DNA from: a virus
Reading direction: 5' to 3' (one strand)
Length of the DNA stretch: 40,578 nucleotides
Virus record (IMG/VR): IMGVR_UViG_3300048918_000407
Span: 1-40,578 of that record
Numbering within the stretch: position 1 is the first letter of the stretch; each line of letters opens with the position of its first letter. Position numbers and translations under genes: made by a program. The notes beneath the pieces are model-generated. The model was given only the letters and a program-made list of their open reading frames with translations. It had not been told where the DNA came from and searched no databases. Below, in pieces: positions 3,627-40,578 of this stretch.

Positions 3627-3793
3627 CCATCTGCACCGGCATCAACCCATCTGACATCCCCTGTGCCGACCTGAAGCTGTTGGAGATGTCCCTGGCCTCA
3701 CGCATCGACAAGGACGTGACGATGCTGCTTGAGGTGCGCGCAGAACTCCGTCGTCGTGCCAAATCTGTTGAGCTTTCATCAACGGAAGAGTAA
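3623..3793 (+). CDS. Small hypothetical protein
   Basis: 56 aa from ATG 3623, overlapping the previous TGA and preceded by GAGGGGGAG. The protein is mostly helical (LKLLEMSLASRIDK, then TMLLEVRAELRRRAK) with no recognisable domain. Its last codons contain an exact copy of the dispersed 17-bp palindrome (3767-3783), which lies just ahead of the next gene's ribosome site. Confidence 0.6.
   Translation: MTICTGINPSDIPCADLKLLEMSLASRIDKDVTMLLEVRAELRRRAKSVELSSTEE
3767..3783. promoter_or_regulatory. Dispersed palindrome GTTGA-N7-TCAAC, copy 1 (exact)
   Basis: GTTGA-GCTTTCA-TCAAC at the 3' end of the small gene, ending 11 nt before ATG 3795, with GGAAG (3784-3788) directly after it. The position suggests control of the metallophosphoesterase gene by a protein dimer or an RNA hairpin. 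Confidence 0.55.
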
Positions 3794-7038: not shown

Positions 7039-7064
7039 CATATGCCGTTCGGTGTTGAGACAAT
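7035..7064 (+). promoter_or_regulatory. Probable sigma70 promoter
   Basis: A perfect -35 box TTGACA at 7035-7040 overlaps the helicase stop codon. With an 18-nt spacer, GACAAT at 7059-7064 is a four-of-six -10 box. It sits in a rare gap between coding regions upstream of the gene at 7104. The palindrome at 7054-7070 covers the -10 box, so a bound protein would block transcription. Confidence 0.55.
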
Positions 7065-7070
7065 ATCAAC
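7054..7070. promoter_or_regulatory. Dispersed palindrome, copy 2 (exact), over a -10 box
   Basis: GTTGA-GACAATA-TCAAC. It overlaps the predicted -10 box and ends 33 nt before ATG 7104. This is the copy most easily read as a repressor operator. Confidence 0.6.
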
Positions 7071-7589: not shown

Positions 7590-7918
7590 TGGCTCGCTGG
7601 TGGGAAATCGATATCCGCTCGGCCGCCAAGCGCAAGCTAGCGCCGAAGGCGGCGTATCGGCCCCGTAAAGAGGCGCCCCCGCGGGACATGGTCAGTGGCA
7701 TCACTGCGTGGTGCCTGTACATGGCCACCAAGGACCACGCCAAGGCCAAGGGGCAAGCTCTGTACATCACGTACGAGCTGATGGGTTTGGGCAATAGCAC
7801 GTCCGAGAGGATGCGCAACTCCAAACCCATCGCGCAAGCCACGGCCTTGAAGATCCTGAAGTACCTGGGCACAGACGTGCGTGCAGTGTTGAGTAAATAT
7901 CAACCGGAGAACAAGTGA
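7589..7918 (+). CDS. Small basic protein, possibly DNA-binding
   Basis: 109 aa from ATG 7589 (TAATG overlap with the previous stop). The N-terminus is strongly basic (SAAKRKLAPKAAYRPRK). The C-terminal half (LYITYELMGLGNSTSERM, then QATALKILKYLG) has the spacing of a helix-turn-helix, but the match is weak. No family recognised. The last codons hold an exact copy of the dispersed palindrome, just before the next gene's ribosome site. Confidence 0.65.
   Translation: MARWWEIDIRSAAKRKLAPKAAYRPRKEAPPRDMVSGITAWCLYMATKDHAKAKGQALYITYELMGLGNSTSERMRNSKPIAQATALKILKYLGTDVRAVLSKYQPENK
7888..7904. promoter_or_regulatory. Dispersed palindrome, copy 3 (exact)
   Basis: GTTGA-GTAAATA-TCAAC, ending just before the GGAG ribosome site (7906-7909) of the gene at 7918. 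All 17 bases equal the reverse complement of the copy at 39122-39138, which in turn precedes the large terminase gene on the other strand. Confidence 0.6.
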
Positions 7919-15000: not shown

Positions 15001-15422
15001 CGACTGTGGCATGGGACGGCAAGACCTTGGCCTGTGACTCCCAGGTGACGGTGGGCAACTGCCGCGGCACATCGGTGAAGCTGGTCAGCAACGATCAGGG
15101 GTTTGTGGCGGCCGGTGCCGGCTCACTGCCCGAGCTGGTCCCGTGGTTCCGTTGGGTCGAGAATGGCATGGATCCGGACCAGCAGCCCACGTCCCTGAGC
15201 GAATCGGATCTCGTGATCGTGCCGCCACGGGGCCCGGCCATCTGGTTCTCGGGCAGTGCGTCACCAATGAAGTTGCCGCGCCGGCATTGGGCGATCGGCA
15301 GTGGCAGCGACTTCGCGCTGGGCGCTATGGCCATGGGCGCTGACGCGCGCCAGGCGGTCAAGGTCGCCATGAAGTTCGACGTGTACACGTCGGGCCGGGT
15401 GCAGTACCGTACTCGCGGCTAG
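14997..15422 (+). CDS. HslV-like Ntn-hydrolase (proteasome-type peptidase)
   Basis: 141 aa from ATG 14997 (ATGA overlap). The N-terminus MTTVAWDGKTLACDSQ matches proteasome beta/HslV proteins, whose Met is removed to expose a catalytic Thr nucleophile; D14 and K29 are in the positions expected for the catalytic partners. GFVAAGAGSLPELVPWFRW and WAIGSGSDFALGAMAMGADARQAV fit the same fold. Short phage members of this group exist; their substrates are not known. No HslU-like ATPase is present, so it would use a host unfoldase or act alone. Its stop runs into the attachment-site region. Confidence 0.8.
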   Translation: MTTVAWDGKTLACDSQVTVGNCRGTSVKLVSNDQGFVAAGAGSLPELVPWFRWVENGMDPDQQPTSLSESDLVIVPPRGPAIWFSGSASPMKLPRRHWAIGSGSDFALGAMAMGADARQAVKVAMKFDVYTSGRVQYRTRG

Positions 15423-18281: not shown

Positions 18282-18700
18282 GGGACGATTCCCGCCAGCG
18301 CCAGGCCGGCATCGATCACGGTTCGTAGGTAGATGTTCCGTCCGTTCTCGTGGCGAATGATTGCGTTGACGAGGGGGAACATCTGGTCGTATTGCGTGAC
18401 GTCCAGGTGCGTGTTCGGATCGACCTTCATAGTCGACGCCACAGCGCTGACGTATGCCGCCGTGTTGTTCTCGTTCTCCGGGGCCCAACGTTCGACGATG
18501 GCGCGCACCGTGTCGAAGCCCTTATGTTGATAAACAATCAACACTTTAGCCAAAGCTCGGATGCCATATTTCACATCGGTGAAGACGCAAAAGTCGGAGT
18601 CCGTTTGCTTCGCGGCCAAGCCTTGCCAGTTCGAACCTAGGCGCAAATTGCCTGGATTGTTGTTGCGTTCGCCGCGAGTGCTGCTCGTTCCGATCATCAC
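18278..18700 (-). CDS. Endolysin, lytic transglycosylase/muramidase type
   Basis: About 140 aa from GTG 18700 or ATG 18697. The N-terminal RGERNNNPGNLRLGSNWQG, followed by FCVFTDVKYGIRALAKVL and ERWAPENENNTAAYV, is the pattern of the family called structural protein P5-like endolysin in phage annotations, a peptidoglycan-cleaving fold. No signal peptide or membrane segment is seen, so release would depend on the holin. The gene order (XhlA-like, endolysin, protease, holin, spanins) supports the call. It contains an exact dispersed palindrome at 18526-18542. Confidence 0.8.
   Translation of the reverse strand: MMIGTSSTRGERNNNPGNLRLGSNWQGLAAKQTDSDFCVFTDVKYGIRALAKVLIVYQHKGFDTVRAIVERWAPENENNTAAYVSAVASTMKVDPNTHLDVTQYDQMFPLVNAIIRHENGRNIYLRTVIDAGLALAGIVP
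18526..18542. promoter_or_regulatory. Dispersed palindrome, exact copy inside the endolysin gene
   Basis: GTTGA-TAAACAA-TCAAC. Unlike the others it lies inside a coding region, codes for part of LIVYQHK, and lacks the G that follows GTTGA in gene orientation elsewhere. It may be a roadblock-type site or chance. Confidence 0.3.
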
Positions 18701-28738: not shown

Positions 28739-30183
28739 CAGCCGCCGTCCTGCGTTTCGAGTTCGACCGACAGGCCACTGATGTTGCTGGGCAGCGGCTG
28801 GGTTTGTTCCCAGATCACATAGCCGTCGCGGTCGTACGATCCCTCCCACGTAAGGGGGAAGTTACCGCTGAAAAGCGGAGGCGGGGCATCCATCAAATCG
28901 TTCGTGCTGCGGAATGATTCATCGTTGATGGGCGCGTTAGCGTTACCTGCCTGGACCTGCAGGCCGAGCGTGTCGTACATCCGGAGGATGATGCGATGAA
29001 TGCGTTTGATCTTGCCCTGTGCCGGTCCTTCGGCGCCGCCAGCTTCCAGCGCCATCGTCTGCGACCGGCTTGTGTAGTTCAAACCGATGTTGACGTCCCT
29101 GGCTGCGCGTTGCAGTGTGATGGCGCCCCCAGTCACCACGACATCGGGATGGGTGGAACTATCGGCCAGGACCGATACCGTCTGTCCTTCCAACCAACTC
29201 AGGCCCGTGATGGTCGTCACAGGCGAGCCAAATGTGGCACGCACCGACGAGTCGAGGTAGTAGGTGTTATTGGGCACAAAGCGATACGCCGTCCCGCCAT
29301 TGAGCGAATAAGGCGTGGCGTCGCCGACTTCCCATATCTTGGTCATACGCTCAACGTAGCAAACAGTCTGGCCATTCACGGTCCGCTGGATGGCCAGCCA
29401 TAGTTCGTCACGGCTATTGTCCGGCGATGGAATGGTGGCCATGCTCAAAACCTTGGCGTTCTGGCCGCCGATCGCATGCGCGGCCCAACCTTCCTCGTCT
29501 TGGTCTCGGTCGTAGCTGATACTCAACAGGGTTCCGTCGGCTCGCAATGCCCAGATGATCTGCTGGGGCGTCTTCTGCAGCATCAGCTGCACGATGCCGC
29601 CCGCGGTCAGGTGTTCCGCTAGCACCGAAACATCGGGACCGATAAAGCCGTTCGTGTAGAAGTCGTACTTCAGCGAACGCATGCGCTTGCCGCCGGCTTG
29701 CATAAAGACGCATTCCTGGCCCACGCGCAACGGAGCGACCTGCACCGACCCGTACAACGACGACTGTTGCGCGGTCGCATTAGTCGAGCTGATAGCCTGG
29801 CCGATCGTGGCCGGAGCTAACAGCCACTCGTTGCCTGCCGTACCAATGAGCAAGCCGTGTGAGTCCGACTGCAGCCACCGAATGGCGTTGATCGTGTTAG
29901 CGTTGAGGTTGATACCGTAGGCATTATTGGCGGCAACGGTAGCGTCAAGCAGCGCGCTCGGAGAGAACACAGTGTATTGGCTCGTGCACGAAGCATCGAT
30001 ACGCTGCGGCAACTGGGGTGTGCCGGCAAACACCAGGCGATCTTCGTGGAACGTGACTACGGCTGGATAATTGCCGACCGTCCACGAGCCAAGGCACCAA
30101 GAACGCGCAGCAGCAAGCGAGCCCGAAGGCGCCACTGTACCTGGATTTAGGGTGTCGTGTTCCGGATCGATGATAATCGTCAC
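28738..30183 (-). CDS. Tail-tube protein gp12-like, C-terminal part (split gene)
   Basis: 481 aa from GTG 30183, which overlaps the stop of the upstream part (GTGA). The frame is open back to 30471, but that stretch is a shadow of the upstream part. It continues the same protein: SWTVGNYPAVVTFHEDRLVFAG and later WLQSDSHGLLIGTAGNEWLL and IWALRADGTLLSISYDRDQ are typical of the C-terminal two-thirds of tail tubular protein B. Either a frameshift joins the parts, or they are two coupled genes. This protein plugs or extends the short tail. Confidence 0.8.
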   Translation of the reverse strand: MTIIIDPEHDTLNPGTVAPSGSLAAARSWCLGSWTVGNYPAVVTFHEDRLVFAGTPQLPQRIDASCTSQYTVFSPSALLDATVAANNAYGINLNANTINAIRWLQSDSHGLLIGTAGNEWLLAPATIGQAISSTNATAQQSSLYGSVQVAPLRVGQECVFMQAGGKRMRSLKYDFYTNGFIGPDVSVLAEHLTAGGIVQLMLQKTPQQIIWALRADGTLLSISYDRDQDEEGWAAHAIGGQNAKVLSMATIPSPDNSRDELWLAIQRTVNGQTVCYVERMTKIWEVGDATPYSLNGGTAYRFVPNNTYYLDSSVRATFGSPVTTITGLSWLEGQTVSVLADSSTHPDVVVTGGAITLQRAARDVNIGLNYTSRSQTMALEAGGAEGPAQGKIKRIHRIILRMYDTLGLQVQAGNANAPINDESFRSTNDLMDAPPPLFSGNFPLTWEGSYDRDGYVIWEQTQPLPSNISGLSVELETQDGG

Positions 30184-30905
30184 GGCGTTTGCCCCATGAC
30201 GGTCACCGTCGCCACCGTTGTGCTGGTGACACCAGTGATCAGCATCCACACCCACTGCGTTGCCGCAGCAGTTGCGACGTTGTTGAGTCGAACCATTCGA
30301 CCCACATCGGATGCTTGGAATCCAGCGCCATTGTTGATGCCCGCTGTGGCCGATGCCGTCAGCGTCGCTCCCGTCGTACCCGGAACCGACGACGAACAGG
30401 ATATCTTGGTCGACGTGATGTTCACCGGCAGATATGGCCCATCCTGCATAGCCAGATTGGCCAATACCCAATTGGTGGCACCGAGACGACTCAACGTCGC
30501 TGGCGGGTAATTCGGATGGCAGATGTAGAGGACATCTGCTGACTGAGTGAAGTAGAGCGTCGGCAGGTCGCCGGCGCCGTACGGCGTGCTGACCTGATAC
30601 GGCGTGCCGCCACTAAGCAACTGGCCGCCATTGGTGTAGAACCGAATTTTGTTGGCCGTAAATTCCAGCACATAGGACTGGAACACATTGAACTGGAACG
30701 GCTGCAGCCGAACCACATTCGGATCGGCCGCAGCCGCCACGTACGTCGTGCCGGGGCGGCGCGTCTGCGGCCCTTGCAGCAAGGGAATGTAGTTCACAGT
30801 CGAACTCATCGCCGCCTTTCGTTTGGGCAAGTCGATGCGACCGTAGGTGAGCGGGGACCACTCGCCTGCGTTGAAACTCGTCTGGTAAAAAGTCGCCCGC
30901 GGCAT
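30180..30905 (-). CDS. Tail-tube protein gp12-like, N-terminal part (split gene)
   Basis: 241 aa. Start at ATG 30905 overlapping the gp11-like stop. The N-terminus (YQTSFNAGEWSPLTYGRID, then RPGTTYVA) is the usual start of tail tubular protein B. The frame ends right after ATVTVMGQTP, at a point where homologous proteins normally continue. The rest is in the -1 frame. The shift point is near ATGGGGCAA (30191-30199), with a run of four G. See the downstream part for the possible restart at GTG. Confidence 0.8.
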   Translation of the reverse strand: MPRATFYQTSFNAGEWSPLTYGRIDLPKRKAAMSSTVNYIPLLQGPQTRRPGTTYVAAAADPNVVRLQPFQFNVFQSYVLEFTANKIRFYTNGGQLLSGGTPYQVSTPYGAGDLPTLYFTQSADVLYICHPNYPPATLSRLGATNWVLANLAMQDGPYLPVNITSTKISCSSSVPGTTGATLTASATAGINNGAGFQASDVGRMVRLNNVATAAATQWVWMLITGVTSTTVATVTVMGQTP

Positions 30906-31519
30906 CAGCGCGTCCGGGCCAGGAGCCAGCCGTCCGTCGGAGCTTCAGCCGGTGTGTTTTCAAAAGCATTGGCCGCCTTGGCGTCCTGCTCAATCGAACG
31001 GTACTGCTGCTGTGCATCCTGCTTTTTCTGATTCGATTGCGTCAGTTTTTCACACATGGCCGCGGCCATGCGCGCAGACACGCACTCGGCAAACAACGGG
31101 TCCCACTGGGTGGGGTCCGTAACGTCCGCGATGTACAAAAGGTATAGCGCCGGAGAGGCGGAAACCGGGGCGTTGACGATGCCTGCGCCGTACGGCGACG
31201 TCGCATCATTGGTCAGGATCTTCCGGCCTTCGATCTGCCAATCGAGGCAAGCATCATTCGGAAGCAACACGCGCAGACAGTCCACAGGCATCGTGTACTG
31301 GTAGAGATAACCCCATGCGGGCTCGGTCACGTCCGGCGCCAGCGCGGCGCGCTTCTTGGCGAAGTTCCACCGATGAACGCGCAGCTCAGCCAGGCGGCAT
31401 GCATCGTAGGCACGCGTACATTCACGAGCCTCGACGGTATTGTCCGTGAGGTTCATGATCGAAGCGGCGCCCAGGAGTTGAAGCGCACGATTCGCGACGT
31501 CTGTGACAGACCGACCCAT
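30905..31519 (-). CDS. Tail tubular protein A (T7 gp11-like)
   Basis: 204 aa. AAGGAGGT lies just upstream of ATG 31519. The sequence ALQLLGAASIMNLTDNTVEARECTRAYD and ELRVHRWNFAKKRAAL with YTMPVDCLRVL is the gp11/head-tail adaptor pattern in short-tailed phages, forming the dodecameric ring under the portal. The C-terminus (MAAAMCEKLTQSNQKKQDAQ) is a typical helical end. Followed directly by the gp12-like gene. Confidence 0.85.
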   Translation of the reverse strand: MGRSVTDVANRALQLLGAASIMNLTDNTVEARECTRAYDACRLAELRVHRWNFAKKRAALAPDVTEPAWGYLYQYTMPVDCLRVLLPNDACLDWQIEGRKILTNDATSPYGAGIVNAPVSASPALYLLYIADVTDPTQWDPLFAECVSARMAAAMCEKLTQSNQKKQDAQQQYRSIEQDAKAANAFENTPAEAPTDGWLLARTR

Positions 31520-31533
31520 GCGCTACTACCTCC

Positions 31534-31845
31534 TTACGTGTTGGTGATGCAGGCGATCTTGAAGCCCGAAGCGGCGGGAACAGCGATCTCGACCGGCGTG
31601 TTCGCCGGCAAGCGCCAGTTGGTCGCGGTCGCTGTTGGATTTGCGCCTACGGCGACGGAACAAACGGCGTCCGCGCAAAGCACAACGAACGTGGTGCTGG
31701 CGTTGAGCGCGGCGGACTGTGCGCTGCCCGCGCCGATCGCCACAGTTTGTTCCGCCAAAGACGGATACGCCGGCACGCCCTGCTGCAGGTAACCAGCCAG
31801 GTCGCGGCCTTGCGTGGCGTGTTCTCGAATGTAGAGGACGGCCAT
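31534..31845 (-). CDS. Hypothetical structural protein
   Basis: 103 aa. The N-terminus VLYIREHATQGRDLAGYLQQG is helical and the rest beta-rich with many small residues (AIGAGSAQSAALNASTTFVV). Such a protein between the coat gene and gp11 may decorate the head or join head and tail. No named family recognised. Three nt separate it from the preceding gene. Confidence 0.65.
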   Translation of the reverse strand: MAVLYIREHATQGRDLAGYLQQGVPAYPSLAEQTVAIGAGSAQSAALNASTTFVVLCADAVCSVAVGANPTATATNWRLPANTPVEIAVPAASGFKIACITNT

Positions 31846-31848
31846 GGC

Positions 31849-32040
31849 TTACAGCGGCGGGTACGGGGCGCGGATGATCGCCACCTTGAGCTTCTCGATA
31901 GCGATTTCGAGAGCGTCGCGAGTAGCCACATTCGTGGACGAATTCACGGCCACTTCCACGTCCTTGCCGGTAGTCGAAGTGGCGATCGTCACGGTGCTGT
32001 CTTCCGCACCGATGTTCACGCCGTAGAAATAAGTTGCCAT
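31849..32040 (-). CDS. Small hypothetical structural protein
   Basis: 63 aa. AGGAG upstream of the ATG. Pattern YFYGVNIGAEDSTVTIATST followed by ALEIAIEKLKVAI. The beta strand plus C-terminal helix suggests a small head-associated protein. No family recognised; supported by good ribosome site and tight packing. Confidence 0.6.
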   Translation of the reverse strand: MATYFYGVNIGAEDSTVTIATSTTGKDVEVAVNSSTNVATRDALEIAIEKLKVAIIRAPYPPL

Positions 32041-32083
32041 TCGGGTCTCCTGAGAGGGGGCGGCCTAAACCGCCCCACTCTGG

Positions 32084-32515
32084 TCAGTTCGGGTGGCTGA
32101 AGTAGAGATCCACCACAAGGGTGCCCGAAGCCGGGAGAGCCGCCGCACCTACGGTCAGCAGAACGCGTTCCGTTGCGGTGCTGGCGGCGCCGGAGAAGGC
32201 AGTCGCCGGACCGAACGGCGTGGGCGTATCCACCGCGGTGAACACCGCTGCGGCGCGGTACTTGCCCGCGGCAGACGCGTTGCCGAGCGCCACCGTGGAC
32301 GAGCCCAGCGACACGCTACTGACCATCTCACCGCCAGCGAACACGAAGCCGGCCGGGACATCTGCCAACACCACGGTGTCGCCACTTGCCTGCGAGGCGA
32401 GTGTGACGGTGGCGCGGAAGCGACGGAGGCGAGCGTGATAGGCGCTGATGGCCGAAGGTTTGATCGACGGTACAAAGTCGATACCGGCGCATTCCACACT
32501 GTAAGTCTGTGCCAT
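32084..32515 (-). CDS. Hypothetical head protein
   Basis: 143 aa. Beta-rich with Ser, Ala, Thr and Val throughout (ATVTLASQASGDTVVLADVP, then GTLVVDLYFSHPN). It directly follows the coat gene in transcription order, where head-decoration proteins are often found. AAGGAG precedes the ATG. The bases immediately before the ATG read TCAAC, a single palindrome half-site. Confidence 0.65.
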   Translation of the reverse strand: MAQTYSVECAGIDFVPSIKPSAISAYHARLRRFRATVTLASQASGDTVVLADVPAGFVFAGGEMVSSVSLGSSTVALGNASAAGKYRAAAVFTAVDTPTPFGPATAFSGAASTATERVLLTVGAAALPASGTLVVDLYFSHPN

Positions 32516-32527
32516 GTTGATTACTCC

Positions 32528-33424
32528 TTACAGGGCGTTGATCATGACGACGCGCTTTTCTTCCAAGCGAGTCGCGCCGAAGGTGCCGGTCGTATAGACC
32601 TGCCACGAGTTGCGCTTATCCGCGCGCTTGTCGACCGACGTCGAAATGTCGTTCCACAGGCCCAGCGCCATGCCCGACTTACACCACACCGGAATCTGAC
32701 GGTTGGCCGGCTGGACACCCTGGTAGGACGGAGCACCCGGGTAACGCTCGGAGTGGATGAAGTTGAAGCCCATGAAGGCGGTGATGCGACCGTCGACCAG
32801 CACCGGACGGTTGGTGTAGTCGAGACTGGTGGACTGGGTTTCGCCCAGCATGTCGTCGTGCGCCTTGGCGTCCAGGGCGACGAACAACTGCTCGACGTCG
32901 ATGTTCACTTCGGCGGCCAGCAGCAGCTGCTTGGCGGCGCGAAGCTTCTTGACGTTGAGGCCGGTATTGGCCGACGCACCCACCTGGATGCCGACCTGCT
33001 GGCCGCCGGGGAAAGCCGTGGACGTGGTGCCGTTTTCGCCGGTGAGCGAGTTGCCGAAGAACGCGGCAACGATCTCGTCATCCTGCGAGCGGCCCAACGC
33101 GTAGGCCTGTGTGCGGACATACTGGCTCGACGGATCGATCAGGATGCGCAGCTTGTCTTCGTTGTCGATCAGGTCGGCAACGTCGTAGTCGTTGGGGAAG
33201 CACCAACGGCGATCCTGCGGAGTCTGCACCAGCGGGGTGTCGGAGTGACGACCCTGGTTCTTGACCGCGACCACCTGGCCAAACTGCTCAAGGACTTCAG
33301 CGGCTTTGCCGTGGAGTGCGTACTCCATGACGGTGCCGCGGAAGCGCGAACCTTCCTGCTGCAGCAGTACGCTGACGTTGGTCGCGTACTGCTGGACATT
33401 TGCGACAGTAATGTAATTGGACAT
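32528..33424 (-). CDS. Major capsid protein
   Basis: 298 aa, in the position after the scaffold gene and two small genes. Segments GSRFRGTVMEYALHGKAAEVLEQFG, PNDYDVADLIDNEDKLR and RTQAYALGRSQDDEIVAAFFGN match coat proteins of podoviruses with the HK97 fold. Later NRPVLVDGRITAFMGFNFIHSERY is typical of the family. AGGAAAT upstream of the ATG. The 103-nt gap before it holds a small CCTC-GGAA-GAGG hairpin and no clear promoter. Confidence 0.88.
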   Translation of the reverse strand: MSNYITVANVQQYATNVSVLLQQEGSRFRGTVMEYALHGKAAEVLEQFGQVVAVKNQGRHSDTPLVQTPQDRRWCFPNDYDVADLIDNEDKLRILIDPSSQYVRTQAYALGRSQDDEIVAAFFGNSLTGENGTTSTAFPGGQQVGIQVGASANTGLNVKKLRAAKQLLLAAEVNIDVEQLFVALDAKAHDDMLGETQSTSLDYTNRPVLVDGRITAFMGFNFIHSERYPGAPSYQGVQPANRQIPVWCKSGMALGLWNDISTSVDKRADKRNSWQVYTTGTFGATRLEEKRVVMINAL

Positions 33425-33527
33425 GACAGGTTATTTCCTGAAAGAGAAGAAGCCGAAAAGGTCCGGACTGTTGGGGCGTCCGTCGTTCCCGGCTTGTCCT
33501 CTTCCGAGGGGCCTGACTGTCGTGGGC

Positions 33528-33725
33528 TCAGCTCAAGGGGTCGGGTTTGGCCGACTTGTCCTTCTTGCCCTGGGACGTTTGAGGCGTCCCGACAACTGCA
33601 TTGTAATACCTTGTTGCGATATTCTCAACATTTTCCGCAGACCGATCCCCTGAAGCAATAGCGGTCTGCACCGCCAGCTTCAGGCATTCCAGTCGGAAAG
33701 TCGCCACGTCCTGCGGCGGGATCAC
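33528..33725 (-). CDS. Small hypothetical protein
   Basis: 65 aa from a GTG overlapping the previous stop. A helical N-terminus (RLECLKLAVQTAIASGDRS) precedes AENVENIATRYYNAVVG and a Lys-rich tail. This resembles small helical phage proteins encoded near coat genes; the function is unknown. A one-mismatch palindrome (GTTGC-GATATTC-TCAAC, 33613-33629) lies inside. Confidence 0.6.
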   Translation of the reverse strand: MIPPQDVATFRLECLKLAVQTAIASGDRSAENVENIATRYYNAVVGTPQTSQGKKDKSAKPDPLS

Positions 33726-33994
33726 GTGTTCACCAGCACTTCCACGGCCACTTCCGTGTCACTCGGCGCGGACATGTCAACCATCTTCGGTGAACCTTCG
33801 ATGGTGTCGAGGGCGCCCGCACCGCCGTCGCCGTTCGGGTGGATGTTGATGTACTGCAGGCCCGTCGAGCCATCCTGCAGCACTTCGGCGTAGTAGTTGG
33901 CCGGATTCAGGCCGTTGCTGTTGCAGTAGGACAGCAGGTAATTCATGGGGTTGAAGCCCCAGAAATCCGCACGATCAGTGGCGATAATGGCCAT
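33722..33994 (-). CDS. Hypothetical virion-region protein
   Basis: 90 aa. IIATDRADFWGFNPMNYLLSYC, then YYAEVLQDGSTGLQYINIHP, followed by an acidic region with VDMSAPSDTEVAVEVLV. Between scaffold and coat genes; three nt after the scaffold stop in transcription. No family recognised. Confidence 0.6.
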   Translation of the reverse strand: MAIIATDRADFWGFNPMNYLLSYCNSNGLNPANYYAEVLQDGSTGLQYINIHPNGDGGAGALDTIEGSPKMVDMSAPSDTEVAVEVLVNT

Positions 33995-33997
33995 GGG

Positions 33998-34876
33998 TTA
34001 CTCCGGGAATGCGTAGTTGTGAAGCTTGGTCCACTTTGCCTTGGCTTCGGCGTCGCCGCTGAAGACCTTGGCCATGAACGCCTTGTCCTGCTTGTGTGCT
34101 GCAATTTCGGCCTTGGCCTGGCCCGGGGTGAGTGCGCCGCCGTAGCTGGTGCTGCTGGTGGCTACGAACTCCGATTCACCGGTCTTGCTGCCAATCTTGT
34201 GCAACAGTTCCATGGTGGCCTTGTGGCCCACCGCGCCGGACACCTTGTCGATGAAGTCGGCACTCAAGCCCAGCGCTTGTGCGGCGCTACGAGCGACCAC
34301 CACGTTCTGGTCGTGCGCGGCGCCCCACTCGGTCTTAAGCGTCTGCACGTCACGGTTGAACGACTCGACGGACTGGTTGGCCTGGGCCGACTGCATGCCG
34401 GCCACCTGCTCGTTGTTCCAGGCGGCAAGACCTTCAACCTGCTTGGCGGTCAGACCCAGTTCGTGTGCCTTGGCCTTGAAGCCGTCGGCGAACTTCGGGT
34501 CGTGGCCTTCGGGCACCGTGACCTTGTAGTCCTTGGGCTCGGCGGGCCGACCCAGCTTGGCGTAGAACGCATCAAGCTCAGCGGCTTCAGCCTTCTCGCC
34601 CGGCAAGATGACCGTACGGCCGGCCTTGTCGGCACCAAAGGTTTTCTCCAAGGCGATGTAACTGTCCAGCACCTGACCGGGCTCTTTCCAGCCCTTGTTC
34701 TGGACGTAACCCACACGGGTTTCGTCGGCGTCGCCAAGCCACTTGAATTCGTGGGCGACAGGAGCGGGGGCCGGAGCGCCGGCTACTTCGGAACTGGTTG
34801 ACCCCGGGGGCGCCACCGTCGTGCTGGTGGTTCCCGGGTTGCCCGTGGTGTCGGACCCGGTTGCTGCGTCGGTCAT
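33998..34876 (-). CDS. Scaffolding protein
   Basis: 292 aa. A Thr/Ser/Pro/Ala-rich N-terminus (residues 1-42) is followed by a helical, charged body with WKEPGQVLDSYIALEKTFGAD and KAHELGLTAKQVEGLAAWNN, the pattern of podovirus scaffolding proteins. No cysteine, no enzyme motif. Placement between the portal group and the coat gene supports this. It would direct assembly of the procapsid and leave afterwards. Confidence 0.8.
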   Translation of the reverse strand: MTDAATGSDTTGNPGTTSTTVAPPGSTSSEVAGAPAPAPVAHEFKWLGDADETRVGYVQNKGWKEPGQVLDSYIALEKTFGADKAGRTVILPGEKAEAAELDAFYAKLGRPAEPKDYKVTVPEGHDPKFADGFKAKAHELGLTAKQVEGLAAWNNEQVAGMQSAQANQSVESFNRDVQTLKTEWGAAHDQNVVVARSAAQALGLSADFIDKVSGAVGHKATMELLHKIGSKTGESEFVATSSTSYGGALTPGQAKAEIAAHKQDKAFMAKVFSGDAEAKAKWTKLHNYAFPE

Positions 34877-34885
34877 GGTTGATCC

Positions 34886-35164
34886 TTATGGGGCGCGTGG
34901 AGCGGGCGCGCCTTGCCCGTATCGCTTCCACAACTCGTCGTCGGAAAGCTTCAAATGGTGTTGCAGCCGCAGCCATACCTCGCGCCGTCCCTCGGCCACG
35001 GCATGCGCGCGCGCGTCGGTGTGAAACGTGGATTCGGTGGCGCGGCAGAACTTGGCCAGATCCGCCAACACCTCTTCGGCCAACGGACCGGTGAAGGTGA
35101 CGCGGTAGGCGTGGGCGCGTCGGCGAAGGAAGCCAAGCGCGGCGTCTAGTGCTTTGATTTCCAT
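34886..35164 (-). CDS. Bbp19-like protein
   Basis: 92 aa from ATG 35164; the longer frame to 35245 overlaps the neighbour and lacks support. RVTFTGPLAEEVLADLAKFCRATES and AHAVAEGRREVWLRLQHHL fit the family first annotated from Bordetella phage BPP-1 as Bbp19, located between portal and scaffold. Function unknown. Helical throughout. Confidence 0.72.
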   Translation of the reverse strand: MEIKALDAALGFLRRRAHAYRVTFTGPLAEEVLADLAKFCRATESTFHTDARAHAVAEGRREVWLRLQHHLKLSDDELWKRYGQGAPAPRAP

Positions 35165-35367
35165 CCGTCGACGTCCTCGATGCGTATGGAGTAACCCTTG
35201 TAATTTTTCTCGGCGCCTTCCATGCCGTTCATCCAGTACCACCACCGGTCATCCTGCGTGGTGAACGGGGCCTTGGCTTTCCAGCCGTAGCACTGGAACC
35301 CTTCCCACCCCGATCGGATGGCCTGACGTTTCGCCTGGTTGTCCAGGTAAATGCGATGGTCATCCAT
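35146..35367 (-). CDS. Small hypothetical protein
   Basis: 73 aa. Rich in Trp, Tyr and charged residues (SGWEGFQCYGWKAKAPF, WWYWMNGMEGAEKNYKG). Its 3' end overlaps the Bbp19-like start by 19 nt. It starts three nt after the portal stop, in a run of coupled genes. No family recognised. Confidence 0.6.
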   Translation of the reverse strand: MDDHRIYLDNQAKRQAIRSGWEGFQCYGWKAKAPFTTQDDRWWYWMNGMEGAEKNYKGYSIRIEDVDGWKSKH

Positions 35368-35370
35368 CGA

Positions 35371-37050
35371 TCAGCCCCCGGGGGTTTGCGCGCCGGACGG
35401 CGCCGCAGCCTTCGCCATGGCGGCCATGCCCGGCAACGCCTGCGTGATCTGTTCTGTCGCCTGCTGTTGCTGGCGCGCCTTGCGCTTGGCGGCCACGGTG
35501 TCGGGATCGTTGACGTACCGGTACGGTGCGCCGTTGATGTCGACCATCTCGGGGATGATCGTGTCCCAGTTGAACCAGTCCAGAGCCGACGGATCTTGGG
35601 TCTGGCCGGCGATCTCCGCGGCGAACTGCACGGAGCGCTGGATGCCGGAGGCTTCCTCGGCGCGCATCGCACGGTTGAGCGGCGCGTCGTACTCGACGTG
35701 GAAACGGGCCTTGGCCTCGATCAGCTCGGGTGGGATCGGCGGCAACAGCCCCAGGCGCAGCAGGATGCTGTATTCGCGTTCGATCATCGGCCCTAAGGAT
35801 TCGGACTGGAACCGGCCCATGGTCGGTGACAACAGGGCGCCCTTCTCGCGCGAACGCTCCAACACTTCGGTCGCCGTCATCTGGGGCGACTCGACCATGA
35901 TCTGGAACAGGCTGACCAGGAACGCGTCGTTGATGCCGGCGCGCTCGTCGTCCATCATCTCCTTGCCGATCTGCACGTTGCCGATCGGGAGGGTATGGAC
36001 CAACGGCCGACCATCGGCGTTCACTGCGCCGTAGTTCGTGGCGCCCGGCTTAAGGCTCAAGCCGTCCATGATGCCGTCATCGTGCGCCAGCAGCACCGGA
36101 GCCACGGCACGATGGCCCTGCTCCAACATGGTCTTCTTTTCCTCGTTAAGCACCTTGATGCTGGGGAGGACGTTCATCGCTGGGCTGCGGCCGTAGATCT
36201 CGCCGGGCGCCGTGATGTAACGGCTGACCGCGTATGGAAGCTGGCGATAGCCGCCCTCTTCCAGGAATGTCTGGGTGTCCTCGATCACGTAGATGGATTC
36301 GAAGGGCATGCCCTTGGCGTCGATACGGATCGGGTTGAAGTCGGCGCGCGGCGTGACGCGATGGATCACCCACACCACGTGCTCAGGCTTGGTGGCCAGC
36401 ATCCCGGAGAACTTCTCCGGCAGGCGGTCGATCCAAGCGTCAGGCGTGCCGGCCTTGCGCTGGGCAATCTGGCGGATCGTCATCGGGAACCGGCGCAGCA
36501 CCGTGTCGACGATGCCCTGGTGGTTCTCCTGGAAATACACCTCGCCCAGGTTGATGTTGCGGTAGCGCAGCCCCTTACGCCCCTGGTTGTCCATCAACTC
36601 GTCGATGTACAGGCAGCTGGTGCCAAAGGCGCCAATGCCGATGTAGCCATCGTGCTGCTGGGACTGGTAGTTCGCCATCGGGCTGTACCGATGGTAGAAG
36701 AGCGCGTCATTGACCTGATCGCACCACAGCTGCACGTTGCGCAGCTTCATCAGGTTCGGGTCGGTCACCCGGATGCGGTGCCACTTGCCGTTGCGCGGCG
36801 TGAGCATCGACTCCATCGCTGCAGCGAAGCGGAACAGCGCGGTGTTGGCCGTGCTGTCGAACATCTGGTAACCGCGCTCCTGGCCCGGCACCGTGTTGCC
36901 TTGGGTGTAGAAGCTCGTCTCGTAGTACGGCAGCACCAACTGGGCGATGTCTTCCCAGTGCTTTTCCCAGATGCCACGCTTGGACTTCGCCTCGCTGTAG
37001 CAGCGGACGACGTCCTGGACGAGCAACGATTCGCGGTCAGGACCGGCCAT
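35371..37050 (-). CDS. Portal protein (head-tail connector)
   Basis: 559 aa. The N-terminus WEKHWEDIAQLVLPYYETSF and the body FDSTANTALFRFAAAMESML, LYIDELMDNQGRKGLRYRNI, QTFLEEGGYRQLPYAVSRY and YGRSPAMNVLPSIKVLNEEK are diagnostic of the podovirus head-to-tail connecting protein family. A Gln/Ala-rich C-terminus follows. It forms the dodecameric ring through which DNA is packaged. Encoded between terminase and scaffold, as usual. Confidence 0.92.
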   Translation of the reverse strand: MAGPDRESLLVQDVVRCYSEAKSKRGIWEKHWEDIAQLVLPYYETSFYTQGNTVPGQERGYQMFDSTANTALFRFAAAMESMLTPRNGKWHRIRVTDPNLMKLRNVQLWCDQVNDALFYHRYSPMANYQSQQHDGYIGIGAFGTSCLYIDELMDNQGRKGLRYRNINLGEVYFQENHQGIVDTVLRRFPMTIRQIAQRKAGTPDAWIDRLPEKFSGMLATKPEHVVWVIHRVTPRADFNPIRIDAKGMPFESIYVIEDTQTFLEEGGYRQLPYAVSRYITAPGEIYGRSPAMNVLPSIKVLNEEKKTMLEQGHRAVAPVLLAHDDGIMDGLSLKPGATNYGAVNADGRPLVHTLPIGNVQIGKEMMDDERAGINDAFLVSLFQIMVESPQMTATEVLERSREKGALLSPTMGRFQSESLGPMIEREYSILLRLGLLPPIPPELIEAKARFHVEYDAPLNRAMRAEEASGIQRSVQFAAEIAGQTQDPSALDWFNWDTIIPEMVDINGAPYRYVNDPDTVAAKRKARQQQQATEQITQALPGMAAMAKAAAPSGAQTPGG

Positions 37051-37053
37051 GAC

Positions 37054-37251
37054 TTAGCAGGTCACCTGAAAGGGCGACGTATGCGGCAAGTTCGGCGTCT
37101 GCCCGAGCTTCAACCAGTCGTAAGTTGGCGTCACCTTGGTGAAGGCAAGCGCCAAATGGTCCTGGATTGCTTTCCACTGTGCGGCCGTCGGAGGCTTGTC
37201 AGTCAGCTCAGCGAAGCCCTGAAGCCAATAGCAGAAGTCCTGCGGGGTCAT
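37054..37251 (-). CDS. Small hypothetical phage protein
   Basis: 65 aa starting MTPQDFCYWLQGFAEL and continuing PTAAQWKAIQDHLALAF, a pattern shared by short phage proteins encoded near portals and terminases. Function unknown. It ends 3 nt before the portal start. An exact dispersed palindrome (37279-37295) lies 27 nt before its start. Confidence 0.65.
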   Translation of the reverse strand: MTPQDFCYWLQGFAELTDKPPTAAQWKAIQDHLALAFTKVTPTYDWLKLGQTPNLPHTSPFQVTC

Positions 37252-37278
37252 CAGATTGATTCCCGTTCGATACAGTCA

Positions 37279-37295
37279 GTTGAGCCTTGCTCAAC
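37279..37295. promoter_or_regulatory. Dispersed palindrome, exact copy before the portal group
   Basis: GTTGAGCCTTGCTCAAC, symmetry extended to 7-bp arms (GTTGAGC/GCTCAAC) around three bases. It sits in a 64-nt gap, 27 nt upstream of the gene at 37251 on the minus strand. No T-run follows on either side, so it is not an ordinary terminator. Confidence 0.6.
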
Positions 37296-37315
37296 ACTGC
37301 GGGCGCAAGAACGCA

Positions 37316-37540
37316 TCACGGGCCTGAGCCCCCCAGCAAGCCGCTGGTCGAAGACACCGTGCCCAGGTTCCCCAAACCGGAACCGCCATTGAGCACGGTG
37401 CTCGACCGGCCGCCCGCCTGCAGGCGCGCCTGCTCATCTTGCTGGGCCTTGGTGATCTGGGTGTTGTTCGCGGCCTGAGTCGGCACCGGGGGCGGTGCGA
37501 CGGGCGCGGGCATTTTGGGGCTGGAAAACAGGCCACCCAT
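37316..37540 (-). CDS. Small hypothetical protein
   Basis: 74 aa from ATG 37540, with AGGTG five to nine nt upstream; a GTG at 37549 directly after the terminase stop would add three residues. The product is Pro-rich at the start (KMPAPVAPPPVPTQAANN) and Gly/Ser-rich at the end. No domain recognised, although similar short Pro/Gly-rich proteins occur between terminase and portal in related phages. Confidence 0.6.
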   Translation of the reverse strand: MGGLFSSPKMPAPVAPPPVPTQAANNTQITKAQQDEQARLQAGGRSSTVLNGGSGLGNLGTVSSTSGLLGGSGP

Positions 37541-37549
37541 AGAGATCAC

Positions 37550-39121
37550 CTATCGCAAAAAGGATTTCGATGTGCCCAGTATATCGTAACTTACATCCCG
37601 GGCGACAGTGCCGCGACGGTTGTGCCGGCTCGATCGGATGTCGTTCCGCGCCACCGTATGGGCAAAGGTCATGCTCAGCGCATCTGCTTCGTCGGGGGAT
37701 GCAAGGCCGCGACCCTTGGCCTCTTCCTTGGATTCCACCTGCAACTTGCCCGAGAGCTTGTTGTACTTGTACTCGGGGGCCTTCAAGTCATCGGCCAGGG
37801 TGGTGTTGGCCGGGATGCAGCCCGTCAGAAGCCAGTCCTTCATCGTGTCCCAGATCTCGGCGCGCTTGTTCTGGTAACGGTCTTTCTCCTTGGCATCACC
37901 CTGCACCATCACGTCGATGACCTTGTAGCCCATCTGGCGCAACCGGTCGGCCACCGGGCCGCCCACGCCATTGGCATCGATGAACACGGCGTCCGGGTTG
38001 TACTTGCCAATGGCATCCGCCACGTGGTCCGCGAAGACCATGGTCGAGATGCCTTTGTACCGTTGCCACGGGATCGACCGCGCGTCGGCGCCGCGTCGGA
38101 AGGCGATCACGCTTGAGTCCTCGCCGTAGCGGGCCACGTCGATGCCCATCACCAGGGGTGCGCCTGGGTCCGGCGTCAGCTGGCGCTCCGTGGCACCGAT
38201 GATGTTGCTCATCGGGATCAGCTGGCGGGCGCCGGCGTTGGGAAACTCGCCGTAGACCTCGATGCGCGCCTCGTCCGAGTCGGCGCCGTACTGGTCGATG
38301 ATCTTCTGGTAGATCGCCTGGTCGGTGCCCTCGACCGTGCGGGCGTCGATCTTCCGGGCGCGCCAGAAGTTGCGGAACTTGTGGTGGGTTTCGAAAAAGG
38401 CGCCCGTGTTGTTGCGGGGGTTGGAGTAGATGTCCCAGTAGCGGTCGAGCACCGGCTCGGTGAAGAAGCCTTCGGACACGGAGAAGATCGCCTGGGGAAT
38501 GCCGCTGGCCTCGTCCATCACCAGCTTTACGCCATTGTGGTTGTGTACGCCGGCAAAGGCGTCGGGCTTTTCCTCGGACCACAGCTGGGCCTGCAGGTAG
38601 TAATAGCCCGTGTCGATCTTGAGCTGGTCCTTCAGGAGGGTCTCGAACCATTCAGCGGGTTTGAGGCTCATGGCCTGGCGATCGAACCAGTGGGAGTTGA
38701 TCGCCATGGTGTGCCACTTGCCCAGCTCGGCCATGGTTCGGCTGACCAGCTGCTGCTCGGTGTTGGCCGTGATGATCGTGGTCGAGCCTAGCCGGGTGGA
38801 GAGCATGTGGATTCCCTCCATGGCCACCTCCGCGGACTTGCCGATACCGCGGCCGGACGCCTTGGAGCCCATCCACATGAGTGGCTGTTGGCCCATGGCG
38901 ATCCGGTGTTTGTTGTTCCGGATGTGCTCGGTCTTCTGCTCCAACTCTTCGATCTGCCATTTCCTTGGCTCCTTGAATTTTTCGAGCGGGGTGTTGGCCT
39001 TGCCCCAGGGGAAGACGAACATGACCCAGGCGCGCAGGTCGTCAGCCAAATTCGGATCCCACAGCTCGGTCATGAGCGTTTGCTCATCGGCGGCGGAATA
39101 AAGCTGTTTGGCCTTCGGCAT
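37550..39121 (-). CDS. Terminase large subunit
   Basis: 523 aa. ATPase: Walker A-like GSKASGRGIGKSAE at about 85-98 and Walker B LVMDEASG at about 204. Nuclease: GIDVARYGEDSSVIAF with the first Asp, VFIDANGVGG with the second and DEADALSM with the last acidic cluster, in RNase H-fold order. It pumps DNA into the procapsid and cuts it. The ATG lies directly behind the palindrome at 39122-39138, with no normal ribosome site visible, so its translation may depend on that element. Confidence 0.93.
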   Translation of the reverse strand: MPKAKQLYSAADEQTLMTELWDPNLADDLRAWVMFVFPWGKANTPLEKFKEPRKWQIEELEQKTEHIRNNKHRIAMGQQPLMWMGSKASGRGIGKSAEVAMEGIHMLSTRLGSTTIITANTEQQLVSRTMAELGKWHTMAINSHWFDRQAMSLKPAEWFETLLKDQLKIDTGYYYLQAQLWSEEKPDAFAGVHNHNGVKLVMDEASGIPQAIFSVSEGFFTEPVLDRYWDIYSNPRNNTGAFFETHHKFRNFWRARKIDARTVEGTDQAIYQKIIDQYGADSDEARIEVYGEFPNAGARQLIPMSNIIGATERQLTPDPGAPLVMGIDVARYGEDSSVIAFRRGADARSIPWQRYKGISTMVFADHVADAIGKYNPDAVFIDANGVGGPVADRLRQMGYKVIDVMVQGDAKEKDRYQNKRAEIWDTMKDWLLTGCIPANTTLADDLKAPEYKYNKLSGKLQVESKEEAKGRGLASPDEADALSMTFAHTVARNDIRSSRHNRRGTVARDVSYDILGTSKSFLR

Positions 39122-39138
39122 GTTGATATTTACTCAAC
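39122..39138. promoter_or_regulatory. Dispersed palindrome, exact copy touching the terminase ATG
   Basis: On the minus strand GTTGA-GTAAATA-TCAAC-ATG. The only purine-rich stretch (GAG) is inside the left arm. Binding or folding here would block initiation of the large terminase. Identical (17 of 17) to the copy at 7888-7904 when read in gene direction. Confidence 0.6.
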
Positions 39139-39212
39139 GTTCATGAAAAATTTTTAGGATTCGCGAACAGCGGCTTCGGCATGGCCCCGGGTGAAACATC
39201 GCGCCAGAATCC

Positions 39213-39230
39213 GGGGGTGCCACCACCCCC
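39213..39230. other. Strong GC hairpin between terminase genes
   Basis: GGGGGTG-CCAC-CACCCCC, a perfect 7-bp stem with a 4-nt loop, flanked by CC and further GG/CC bases. It is located in the 147-nt gap between small and large terminase, which has no supported gene. No T-run follows, so termination is unlikely; a packaging or cos-related site or an mRNA stability element are options. Confidence 0.4.
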
Positions 39231-39268
39231 ACCCGGCCTTTCGCGGCTGGATGGGACCCGCAAACGGG

Positions 39269-39832
39269 TCAGTCGAAGATGTCCGGGAGTGGCGGAGTTG
39301 ATTCGTTATCAATTTGCTGTGCGTGTTGATTGTCTTGTGAATCAATCACTTGCACATCTATGATATCCGCTGGGTCGCACGTGGGTCGCAATTGACTGCG
39401 TGAACGCGCTTCGGCCAGGGCAGATCCGATGTCGATCGTCTGCGTGACATTGATGTCCAGCTTCTCGCCGTAGACCTTTGGAATGAGCTTGGAAGCCAGC
39501 CAGCGCTGCGTATCGATGATCAACCTGGCGCGGTTGACATCGGGCTCGGTGCGCGCCACGTGGTCCATCAAATCAACGCGTTGGTCGATTACGATCGCGC
39601 GCGCAGACCGCAGCGCGTGTTCGAAAGCTGGCATTTCCGCGCGCCACTTGGCGTAGCGATATTGCGTAATTCCCCTTGTTTCCAAACACTTATCGACAGG
39701 CATCCCTGTAAGGAATAAATCCAGGAACGCCTGTTGTTCCTCAGTAATTTGAGGAACGGTGACCTTTGATAGGCTTTGGCTATCGCTCACAGCATCACCA
39801 TAGGAAAATTCAATTACCGATAGTGTTGACAT
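39269..39832 (-). CDS. Terminase small subunit
   Basis: 187 aa from ATG 39832; an in-frame extension to 39913 crosses the promoter. The helical DNA-binding part shows QITEEQQAFLDLFLTGMPVDKCLETRGI (helix-turn-helix like), YRYAKWRAEMPAFEHALRSAR and DLMDHVARTEP, as in Sf6/Bbp-type small terminases. The C-terminus is acidic and Gln-rich. It binds the packaging site and presents DNA to the large subunit. The mRNA leader from the promoter would be only about a dozen nt with no clear ribosome site. Confidence 0.82.
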   Translation of the reverse strand: MSTLSVIEFSYGDAVSDSQSLSKVTVPQITEEQQAFLDLFLTGMPVDKCLETRGITQYRYAKWRAEMPAFEHALRSARAIVIDQRVDLMDHVARTEPDVNRARLIIDTQRWLASKLIPKVYGEKLDINVTQTIDIGSALAEARSRSQLRPTCDPADIIDVQVIDSQDNQHAQQIDNESTPPLPDIFD

Positions 39833-39855
39833 TGCGCCAACGTTGTGGACATTAT
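39826..39855 (+). promoter_or_regulatory. Rightward promoter
   Basis: TTGACA at 39826-39831, 18-nt spacer, CATTAT (four of six) at 39850-39855, reading toward the small genes at 39928. It overlaps a leftward promoter in opposite direction, so the two would compete. GTTGA-CATTGCG-CCAAC (39825-39841), one mismatch from the dispersed palindrome, covers its -35 box. Confidence 0.5.
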
Positions 39856-39879
39856 ACCAACACACCGAACGTCGGTGAA
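39851..39879 (-). promoter_or_regulatory. Leftward promoter for terminase and structural genes
   Basis: On the minus strand TTCACC (39879-39874), 17-nt spacer, perfect TATAAT (39856-39851). The -35 box is only four of six, which with the tandem repeats just upstream suggests an activated promoter. It could drive the whole leftward arc. Confidence 0.6.
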
Positions 39880-39905
39880 CGTCCACGGCCGAACATGGCC
39901 GAACA
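39867..39905. repeat. Helically phased tandem repeats behind the leftward promoter
   Basis: GAACGTC occurs at 39867-39873 and 39877-39883, and GGCCGAACA at 39887-39895 and 39897-39905, each pair with a 10-bp period. Together these share a GAAC core, at 39867, 39877, 39891 and 39901. The position over and above the -35 box fits activator binding sites. Confidence 0.5.
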
Positions 39906-39927
39906 CTACGCAACTTGGGAGAAACAC

Positions 39928-40134
39928 ATGAACCGCCAAACCCTTCGGAACGCCTATCCCTTCCACAACACGCAGCCGTACGTGTCGGTTGGCTACAACC
40001 CTAAGCGTGACGGCAACGCCAACCGCTTCAGTCAGGTGATGGCGAGGATCTTGATCTACGGTATGAGTTCAGCCGTCGGGATTGCCGTGGTGCTGAGCAT
40101 CGCTCACAGCGTGATCAGGGCTTTTGCCGCCTAA
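39928..40134 (+). CDS. Small single-pass membrane protein
   Basis: 68 aa from ATG 39928, with GGGAGA at 39917-39922. The N-terminal half is polar (NAYPFHNTQPYVSVGYNPKR); a hydrophobic segment (ILIYGMSSAVGIAVVLSIAH) lies near the C-terminus. First gene of the rightward set, downstream of the TTGACA promoter. No family recognised. Confidence 0.6.
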   Translation: MNRQTLRNAYPFHNTQPYVSVGYNPKRDGNANRFSQVMARILIYGMSSAVGIAVVLSIAHSVIRAFAA

Positions 40135-40137
40135 ACT

Positions 40138-40154
40138 GTTGCGTTTTTTGCAAC
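40138..40154. promoter_or_regulatory. Palindrome variant GTTGC-N7-GCAAC
   Basis: GTTGC-GTTTTTT-GCAAC has the same 5-7-5 layout with compensating changes in both arms (A to C and T to G), ending 21 nt before ATG 40176. Paired changes that keep symmetry support a functional dyad or a hairpin. Confidence 0.45.
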
Positions 40155-40175
40155 ACTTTCACTTTGGAGAAGGCT

Positions 40176-40382
40176 ATGCAGATCGTCAGCGAGCATTACA
40201 TCGAAGGCATCAAAGAGGGACGCGCCGCGTTCAAGCGTGAAGGCTTGGAATTTGGCGCGGATCACCTGACAAACCTCTCCCGCACCATCAAAGGCTTTGC
40301 CGCAAGTAGTCCGGTGGGCCAGATGTTGCGTGGTGAACGTGACTTCTGGATCAACCAATTGGCGAAGGCGACCACACCGTGA
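40176..40382 (+). CDS. Small hypothetical protein
   Basis: 68 aa from ATG 40176 with GGAGAAGG upstream. Helical and charged (EHYIEGIKEGRAAFKREGLE, then NLSRTIKGF), ending in MLRGERDFWINQLAKA. No family recognised. Its stop overlaps the next GTG (GTGA), as in other early operon junctions of this phage. Confidence 0.6.
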   Translation: MQIVSEHYIEGIKEGRAAFKREGLEFGADHLTNLSRTIKGFAASSPVGQMLRGERDFWINQLAKATTP

Positions 40383-40578
40383 CCAACTCAGACTGGCTCA
40401 CCCTCAAAGGCGGCAACCACGAACTGCCCTGCGGTGAAGGCCGCAAGCTGCGCATCATCCAGACCAAGCGTCAGCCCGAGCAATGGACGGCAGTAGCTGT
40501 GCTCACGCGGTCCCAGGCAATCGGGCGCTACACCACCAAGGAGGAAGCCCAGCAAGCCGCAGAAGTCTGGGCCGAGCA
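40379..40578 (+). CDS. Partial hypothetical protein (cut by window end)
   Basis: GTG 40379 overlaps the preceding TGA; the frame is open to the window end (66 complete codons). WLTLKGGNHELPCGEGRKLR and the later YTTKEEAQQAAEVWAE look like a small beta-rich phage protein with a helical end. If the window ends were joined directly, the frame would enter the repeat at its left end in a Val/Gly frame, not in the Ser-Ala-X frame, so a direct join of the ends would not give a sensible fusion. Confidence 0.55.
   Translation, partial: MTNSDWLTLKGGNHELPCGEGRKLRIIQTKRQPEQWTAVAVLTRSQAIGRYTTKEEAQQAAEVWAE

Follow-up and report, generated by a model that had tools for sequence, protein, structure and literature searches.

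Overlapping divergent promoters and a dispersed 17-bp dyad before the terminase genes of a putatively temperate, podovirus-like phage

Between the terminase genes of the phage sequence studied here and a set of small genes pointing the other way lie two predicted promoters that occupy the same few dozen bases, which raises the question of whether they form a single bidirectional element, what controls it and what each direction serves. The sequence, analysed over its whole length and referred to below as the window, is a virus record of 40,578 bases (linear class, 61% GC) with T7-like head, tail and replication genes and an integrase. No phage RNA polymerase was found among the 28 window ORFs scanned against PHROGs, and positions 36000-40578 gave no DNA match to named phages. 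We take the phage to be temperate and podovirus-like, with the same modest confidence that we place in the explanation developed below. To the left of the promoters is the gene for the terminase small subunit (39269..39790, minus strand; phrog_1482, 3.8e-16; PF20901, 2.3e-11), and the second leftward gene encodes the large subunit (37550..39121, minus strand; phrog_2, 8.5e-38). The small terminase gene probably starts at the GTG at 39790 rather than at the ATG at 39832; in relatives, an ATG aligns with this GTG at the same codon.

The divergent promoter pair

Relatives were collected from viral_contigs, where a search with the large terminase yielded 66 loci and a profile of the small terminase yielded 185, the best 80 of which, some overlapping, were used. 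The sequence ahead of the small terminase gene was compared in 22 loci and the window, giving 23 rows. The rightward promoter motif is present in 14 rows, which correspond to 12 distinct sequences, window included, once the repeats (L075 = L074, L003 = L004) are set aside; one of these, L002, lies on contig L069 and is about 84% identical to the window in DNA over most of its length. Outside this close group the promoter is unrecognisable: the nine remaining rows of the 23 are eight distant loci (L085, L063, L010, L088, L087, L092, L118 and L132) and L081, the row of which begins inside the small terminase gene. When a bidirectional promoter was sought upstream of the large-terminase genes of 21 more distant loci, two candidates appeared (L018 and L026), neither of them clearly at the corresponding place.

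The predicted rightward promoter is of the sigma70 type (39826..39855, plus strand), with a -35 TTGACA at 39826-39831, an N18 spacer and a -10 CATTAT at 39850-39855, and its start, placed from the -10, is predicted to be the A at 39862. The leftward core (39851..39862, minus strand) consists of a -10 TATAAT at 39856-39851 with G at -14 and T at -18, and its start, placed in the same way, is predicted to be the A at 39844; in the window genome only, there is also a leftward -35, TTCACC at 39879-39874, separated by N17 from the TATAAT. The first-pass annotation, which had drawn attention to these hexamers, gave their positions correctly, as it did for every other motif that it named. Each promoter scores 10 of 12 against the consensus. 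Single promoter-like sites are not unusual in themselves: 30000-40578 holds 5, and shuffles give 2.3. If one asks for a divergent, overlapping pair whose starts are 16-20 bp apart and whose halves each score at least 9 of 12, the window has one and 4 of 60 dinucleotide shuffles contain one; with each half at 10 of 12 or better, none of the 60 does.

The two predicted starts, positioned from the -10 elements only, are 18 bp apart, and the -10 elements merge into a common pseudo-symmetric sequence that reads CATTATA on one strand and TATAATG on the other. Positions 39851 and 39855 act as -7 and -11 on both strands, and these columns are invariant in all 12 distinct sequences, so that the reciprocal pairing is present throughout. 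In the portions of PMC12825309 and PMC10268837 drawn on here, bidirectional promoters are characterized by divergent starts 7-25 bp apart, with 18 bp the commonest distance, by overlapping -10 elements with reciprocal -7T/-11A pairing, and by T as the most frequent base at -18 from each start; PMC12825309 also describes an absence of competition between the two directions at low basal activity, together with possible repression of one direction when the other is strongly activated. The 18-bp spacing and the T at -18 (leftward in 12 of 12; rightward in 7 of 12, with C in the other 5) would fit these rules, given the predicted starts.

Conservation extends to both halves of the pair, and the overlapping divergent promoters that the first-pass annotation had proposed before the terminase genes are kept in all 12 distinct close relatives. 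The rightward promoter has the form TTGAC[AGT]-N18-CATT[AG]T in every one of them (N17 in L007), with A as the predicted start in each, and the strict motif has 22 matches in 161 loci (1,151,778 bases), every one at the promoter site. The leftward -10 is TATAAT in nine sequences, TACAAT in two and CATAAT in one, and G at -14, T at -18 and a purine at +1 are present in all 12; the conservation of this hexamer is better shown by a free alignment, made separately, because the site search preselected [CT]A[CT]AATG. The leftward -35 is not conserved; the window's best match scores 4/6, and those of the 11 others score 1-3/6. We consider the pair well supported, on pattern and conservation, as a probable bidirectional sigma70 promoter.

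It is conceivable that only the rightward promoter works, the leftward TATAAT being a by-product of the symmetric -10 and the terminase genes being transcribed from elsewhere. The rightward promoter is indeed the only one in which -35 and -10 are conserved together, but the first T of the leftward TATAAT, a base that the rightward hexamer does not include, is shared by 11 of 12 sequences, the leftward -14 G and -18 T do not vary, and the small terminase gene begins about 54 nt downstream of the predicted leftward start. We regard this one-sided reading as unlikely.

Two further features may be recorded here. Within the small terminase gene, at about codons 2-8, lies GATAG-N7-CTATC (39768-39784), the sole such dyad in the window; its CTATC, which includes the rare leucine codon CTA (26 of 553 Leu codons in 12 genes), is preserved by 11 of the 12 relatives in the alignment, and the element may be a packaging or translation-control site. 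A leftward promoter-like site before the capsid gene (33628-33600) is kept in L002 and was set aside because it apparently lies within a conserved reading frame, as judged by eye from the flanks in comparison with L004.

A dispersed dyad and its probable repressor

The rightward -35 is overlapped by a 17-bp dyad, GTTG-N9-CAAC (39825..39841), which also covers the first bases that would be transcribed into the leftward RNA. The first-pass annotation had pointed to four half-sites, GTTG at 39825 and 39842 and CCAAC at 39837 and 39857. GTTG and CAAC alone are common (471 in both strands); the half-sites at 39825 and 39837 do form an over-represented dyad, whereas those at 39842 and 39857 make a GTTG-N12-CAAC pair that is not enriched (2 copies, where shuffles give 0.7). 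GTTG-N9-CAAC occurs 11 times in the window, compared with a shuffle mean of 0.97 and a maximum of 4 in 30 shuffles, and each of the other spacings from 3 to 16 is represented 0-2 times. In a scan of all 4-mers with spacings 1-20 it is the top dyad both in the window (0 of 25 shuffles as extreme) and in L069 (0 of 60), where 8 copies compare with 0.2 in shuffles; L178 has 8 copies and L170 has 5. It ranks third in L016, where two GC-rich repeats come ahead of it; its p there is 2.8e-7, the smallest value among 60 shuffles being 1.8e-6.

Seven of the 11 window dyads lie mostly in intergenic gaps, which by our own gene list make up 4.5% of the sequence; for dyads with other spacings the count is 3 of 13. 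Besides the promoter copy, they are found between the small and large terminase genes (39122..39138), in the gap after the first rightward gene (40138..40154), in the gap downstream of the large terminase gene (37279..37295), in an intergenic gap at 18526..18542, after the helicase gene (7054..7070) and upstream of the metallophosphoesterase gene (3767..3783). The other four fall within coding frames (7888, 11873, 33191 and 33613): that at 7888..7904 lies in the final codons of ORF 7574-7918, where two genes join, and the match at 33613 may be explained by a conserved reading frame. Such a set of many near-identical sites, mostly between genes, is what dispersed operators would look like. In L002 the copy between the terminase genes is kept, as are those at 40138 and 37279 with a changed centre. 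Across the four noncoding sites common to the window and L002, the arms show 0 mismatches in 32 positions and the centres 14 in 36 (0, 3, 5 and 6 of 9 at the individual sites), a comparison that favours unchanged arms since the sites were picked as present in both.

A repressor gene was not found in the window by tblastn, and the window's operator is inferred from L002 and other relatives because of this. Those relatives, the flanks of which extend past the window end, encode HTH proteins that would serve as phage-encoded DNA-binding repressors; they match HTH families, and their profile finds lambda CI structures. In 11 repressor-bearing loci the recognition helix was compared with the dyad. 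Helices of the form [DN][KR]S..SR occur in L002 (DKSSLSR), L080/L170 (DRSAFSR) and L016/L178 (NRSIVSR), and the dyad is enriched in all three of these [KR]S..SR lineages (p 4.2e-8, 4.5e-6 and 1.7e-7, respectively). In the eight loci with a DPS or DPA helix (L171, L172, L173, L006, L174, L175, L176 and L072), p ranges from 1.2e-3 to 1 and none reaches 1e-4; the lowest value belongs to L006, which has a DPS helix yet carries a dyad at its promoter (3 sites). The association of helix class with dyad enrichment has a Fisher's exact p of 0.006, for loci that are few and related and with a cut-off chosen afterwards. The repressor of L080 is closer overall to the dyad-poor L073 type (41%) than to that of L002 (34%), which argues against mere common descent. 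Most likely, the dyad serves as an operator for the CI-like repressor of the phage.

The same copies could instead be RNA hairpins between genes, involved in processing, translation control or the action of an antitermination-like factor, with the promoter still bidirectional. In transcripts the dyad could fold as GUUGA-N7-UCAAC, a 5-bp stem with a 7-nt loop; several copies stand directly before start codons, and a mild asymmetry shows when the sites are put in their assumed sense orientation, 14 of 19 having G at one inner position. The A/T-rich centres (0.66, in a 61% GC genome) are, however, not conserved as a loop, and dyads overlap the promoter hexamers here and the TTGACA in the gap between repressor and early genes of L069, for which a DNA operator is the simpler account. 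A hairpin role also fails to predict the link with the recognition helix, and we hold it to be quite unlikely.

The reading that we favour, with modest confidence, is that of a bidirectional host-polymerase promoter with the operator of a CI-like repressor over its rightward -35, the nearby repeats discussed below being private to this genome. Host RNA polymerase with a sigma70-type factor would bind the common -10 in either orientation, to start leftward at 39844 towards the terminase and late genes, or rightward at 39862 into a short operon that consists of small genes; the conserved -35 would serve the rightward start, and the leftward one would rely on the -10, the -14 G and the -18 T. In a lysogen, repressor on the dyad at 39825-39841 would silence both directions at once, because the dyad covers the rightward -35 and the initial transcribed bases of the leftward unit. 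The locus would probably be a conserved switch point able to start transcription both ways; transcription, repressor binding and lysogenic control are what we infer here from sequences, conservation, geometry and dyad enrichment. Control through a single dyad cannot hold in the same form throughout the group, as the exact dyad overlaps the promoter in 4 of the 12 distinct sequences (window, L002, L006 and L007) and 8 are without it; L080 has a dyad-rich genome with none at the promoter. A broader proposal, in which dispersed symmetric 17-bp operators block both initiation and elongation in the manner of stoperators though with a dyad of lambda type, one dimer at the bidirectional promoter silences late and accessory transcripts, and operator and helix co-vary between lineages, is put forward tentatively as a possibility of lesser weight.

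Other symmetric sites came to light in the same loci. L063, the repressor helix of which is DPSQITR, carries a different dyad, TTGC-N7-GCAA, four times in 8.7 kb (229, 1090, 1467 and 7134), with one copy in the stretch that holds its repressor, and the dyad stands at 683 of L167; possibly it is the matching operator of a differently built repressor. L068, a contig from an alphaproteobacterial MAG, shares with L016 seven dyads with identical flanks, and the MAG genome has two repressor matches; L068 is probably a prophage or phage contig.

The rightward unit and the phased repeats

What would the rightward transcript serve? The first rightward gene (39928..40134, plus strand) encodes 68 aa without a PHROGs match and is followed on the same strand by two more small genes (40176-40382, and 40379 to the window end at 40578), the last of which is cut by the end of the window. 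All 11 relatives have in their rightward unit, though not always in first place, a gene for a small protein related to the 68-aa product (tblastn). The L002 homologue of the window's last rightward gene is followed by a terminator, its hairpin and T-rich tail beginning about 509 nt after the predicted rightward start, and past it lies a leftward 255-aa ORF with an HTH_3 domain (PF01381, 2e-7). A terminator of intrinsic type is present 0.5-1.9 kb from the rightward start in 10 of 11 relatives, against a background of 19 such matches over 196,462 bases of both strands; in L007, for which 1,023 nt were at hand, there is a weak candidate. A CI-like repressor gene in convergent orientation was found in 9 of 11, the exceptions being L076 and L007, which have short flanks, and in six relatives a RuvC-like gene lies beyond it. 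DNA polymerase is encoded in 4 of 8 larger contigs, each time on the other strand from terminase, and the replication genes are located beyond the repressor gene. The terminator, the convergent repressor gene and the placement of the polymerase suggest that the rightward transcript probably covers a short accessory operon, and that the early control region probably lies between the repressor and RuvC genes, outside the window, which stops at 40578 and so kept that region from the view of the first-pass annotation. A search for words common to the promoter and the gap between repressor and early genes in L161, L162 and L069 gave no convincing motif. The description of the locus as the main switch between the rightward and leftward arcs finds no support, because of this terminator, this convergent gene and the replication genes beyond.

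Two pairs of period-10 repeats, GAACGTC (39867 and 39877) and GGCCGAACA (39887 and 39897), fill 39867..39905. The first-pass annotation placed them behind the leftward -35; the second GAACGTC copy in fact overlaps that -35, and the repeats sit also in the 5' leader of the predicted rightward transcript. They are beyond chance, a period-10 pair of matches like the window's occurring in none of 60 shuffles, yet private to the window genome: a 19-mer spanning both GGCCGAACA copies has no match in viral_contigs, and the repeats are absent from all 11 other distinct relatives, each of which has a short leader. The distance from the predicted start to the first rightward start codon is 66 bases in the window and about 24-28 in the 11 others, as counted by eye, and the extra bases contain the repeats, including the source of the window's TTCACC. 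Hairpins in the rightward leader are no stronger than in shuffles (z -0.73), the leftward leader gives z -0.72 in the window and +1.57 in L005, and the consensus fold of the 12 sequences is weak (-2.55 kcal/mol). As part of our preferred and moderately probable reading, the repeats joined the rightward leader recently and in this genome only, as a local oddity.

An activator site for late genes, as the phased repeats had been interpreted, is unsupported because the stretch is unique to the window genome; the first-pass annotation had itself named absence of the repeats from close relatives as grounds for giving up the idea, and none of the 11 others has them. That the pair is nevertheless the main early/late switch, with an activator on the 10-bp-phased repeats behind a weak leftward -35, is very improbable. 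In its favour are the position of the divergent promoters, precisely where two gene groups of opposite orientation meet, the weakness of the leftward -35, and repeats that go beyond what chance would give. Against it, those repeats are missing from all 11 other relatives, the rightward unit is short and almost always terminated (10 of 11), and the repressor gene separates it from the early genes. The promoter is of an ordinary kind in an informative, conserved place, and the repeats are not the key to it.

GC-rich tandem repeats of another sort, with units of 9, 12, 18 and 30 bases among others, occur at 1-182 and 1189-1410 of the window. The contig probably breaks at these repeats, with the repressor region falling in the gap; the end of L002 is likewise a repeat gene, which by eye looks pentapeptide-like.

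Comparison with known systems

Warman et al. 2021 reportedly described sigma70 promoters in E. coli and Salmonella that work in both directions. The predicted phage element differs from them in being fixed and conserved, with genes in both directions and a dyad over one -35. It resembles them in the common near-symmetric -10, the 18-bp spacing of the predicted starts and the -7T/-11A pairing, as given in the portions of PMC12825309 and PMC10268837 used here. The likeness would include the T at -18, as well as one side with a poorly conserved -35. No phage bidirectional promoter of such a kind was found by title or opening of abstract within the literature library searched. As the bacterial examples are usually explained by the symmetry of the -10, a phage lineage that keeps one at a fixed place, with genes on either side, offers a natural test of selection.

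For the dyads there are several points of comparison. Between genes of phiC31 stand conserved inverted repeats of about 17 bp, which are bound by the phage repressor; this is another phage with another repressor, likened here by description. Lambda operators are also 17 bp long, and the divergent starts of lambda have no common -10. The repressors of the relatives resemble lambda CI in the Cro/CI-type HTH, their profile matching its structures, whereas the lambda operators are clustered at two control regions and the window dyads are dispersed. Dispersal over the genome is a property of the P1 C1 operators, 17-bp repressor sites of which P1 has 22 according to the part of PMC8546580 consulted; in this comparison of sites, the C1 consensus given there is asymmetric while the window site is a dyad. 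The stoperators of cluster A mycobacteriophages, in the portions of PMC6550527 and PMC9283540 drawn on, are likewise short sites of repressor type that recur throughout the genome of a temperate phage, with motif and repressor co-varying. They are described in that part of PMC6550527 as 13-bp, asymmetric and in one main orientation, and the phage site, a symmetric 17-bp dyad whose arms define the search, was not classed with them. Should the dyads be operators, pairing repressor helices with operator sequences would make specificity and immunity groups readable from metagenomes.

Two further observations concern other parts of these genomes. The GC-rich dyads that outrank GTTG-N9-CAAC in L016/L178, GCGC-N11-GCGC (23 against 1.85 expected) and CGCC-N9-GGCG (16 against 1.67), probably reflect a repeat gene. 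In the rightward arc of the window, a match to HslV-family peptidases (14880-15422; phrog_1040, 7e-35) adjoins the integrase.
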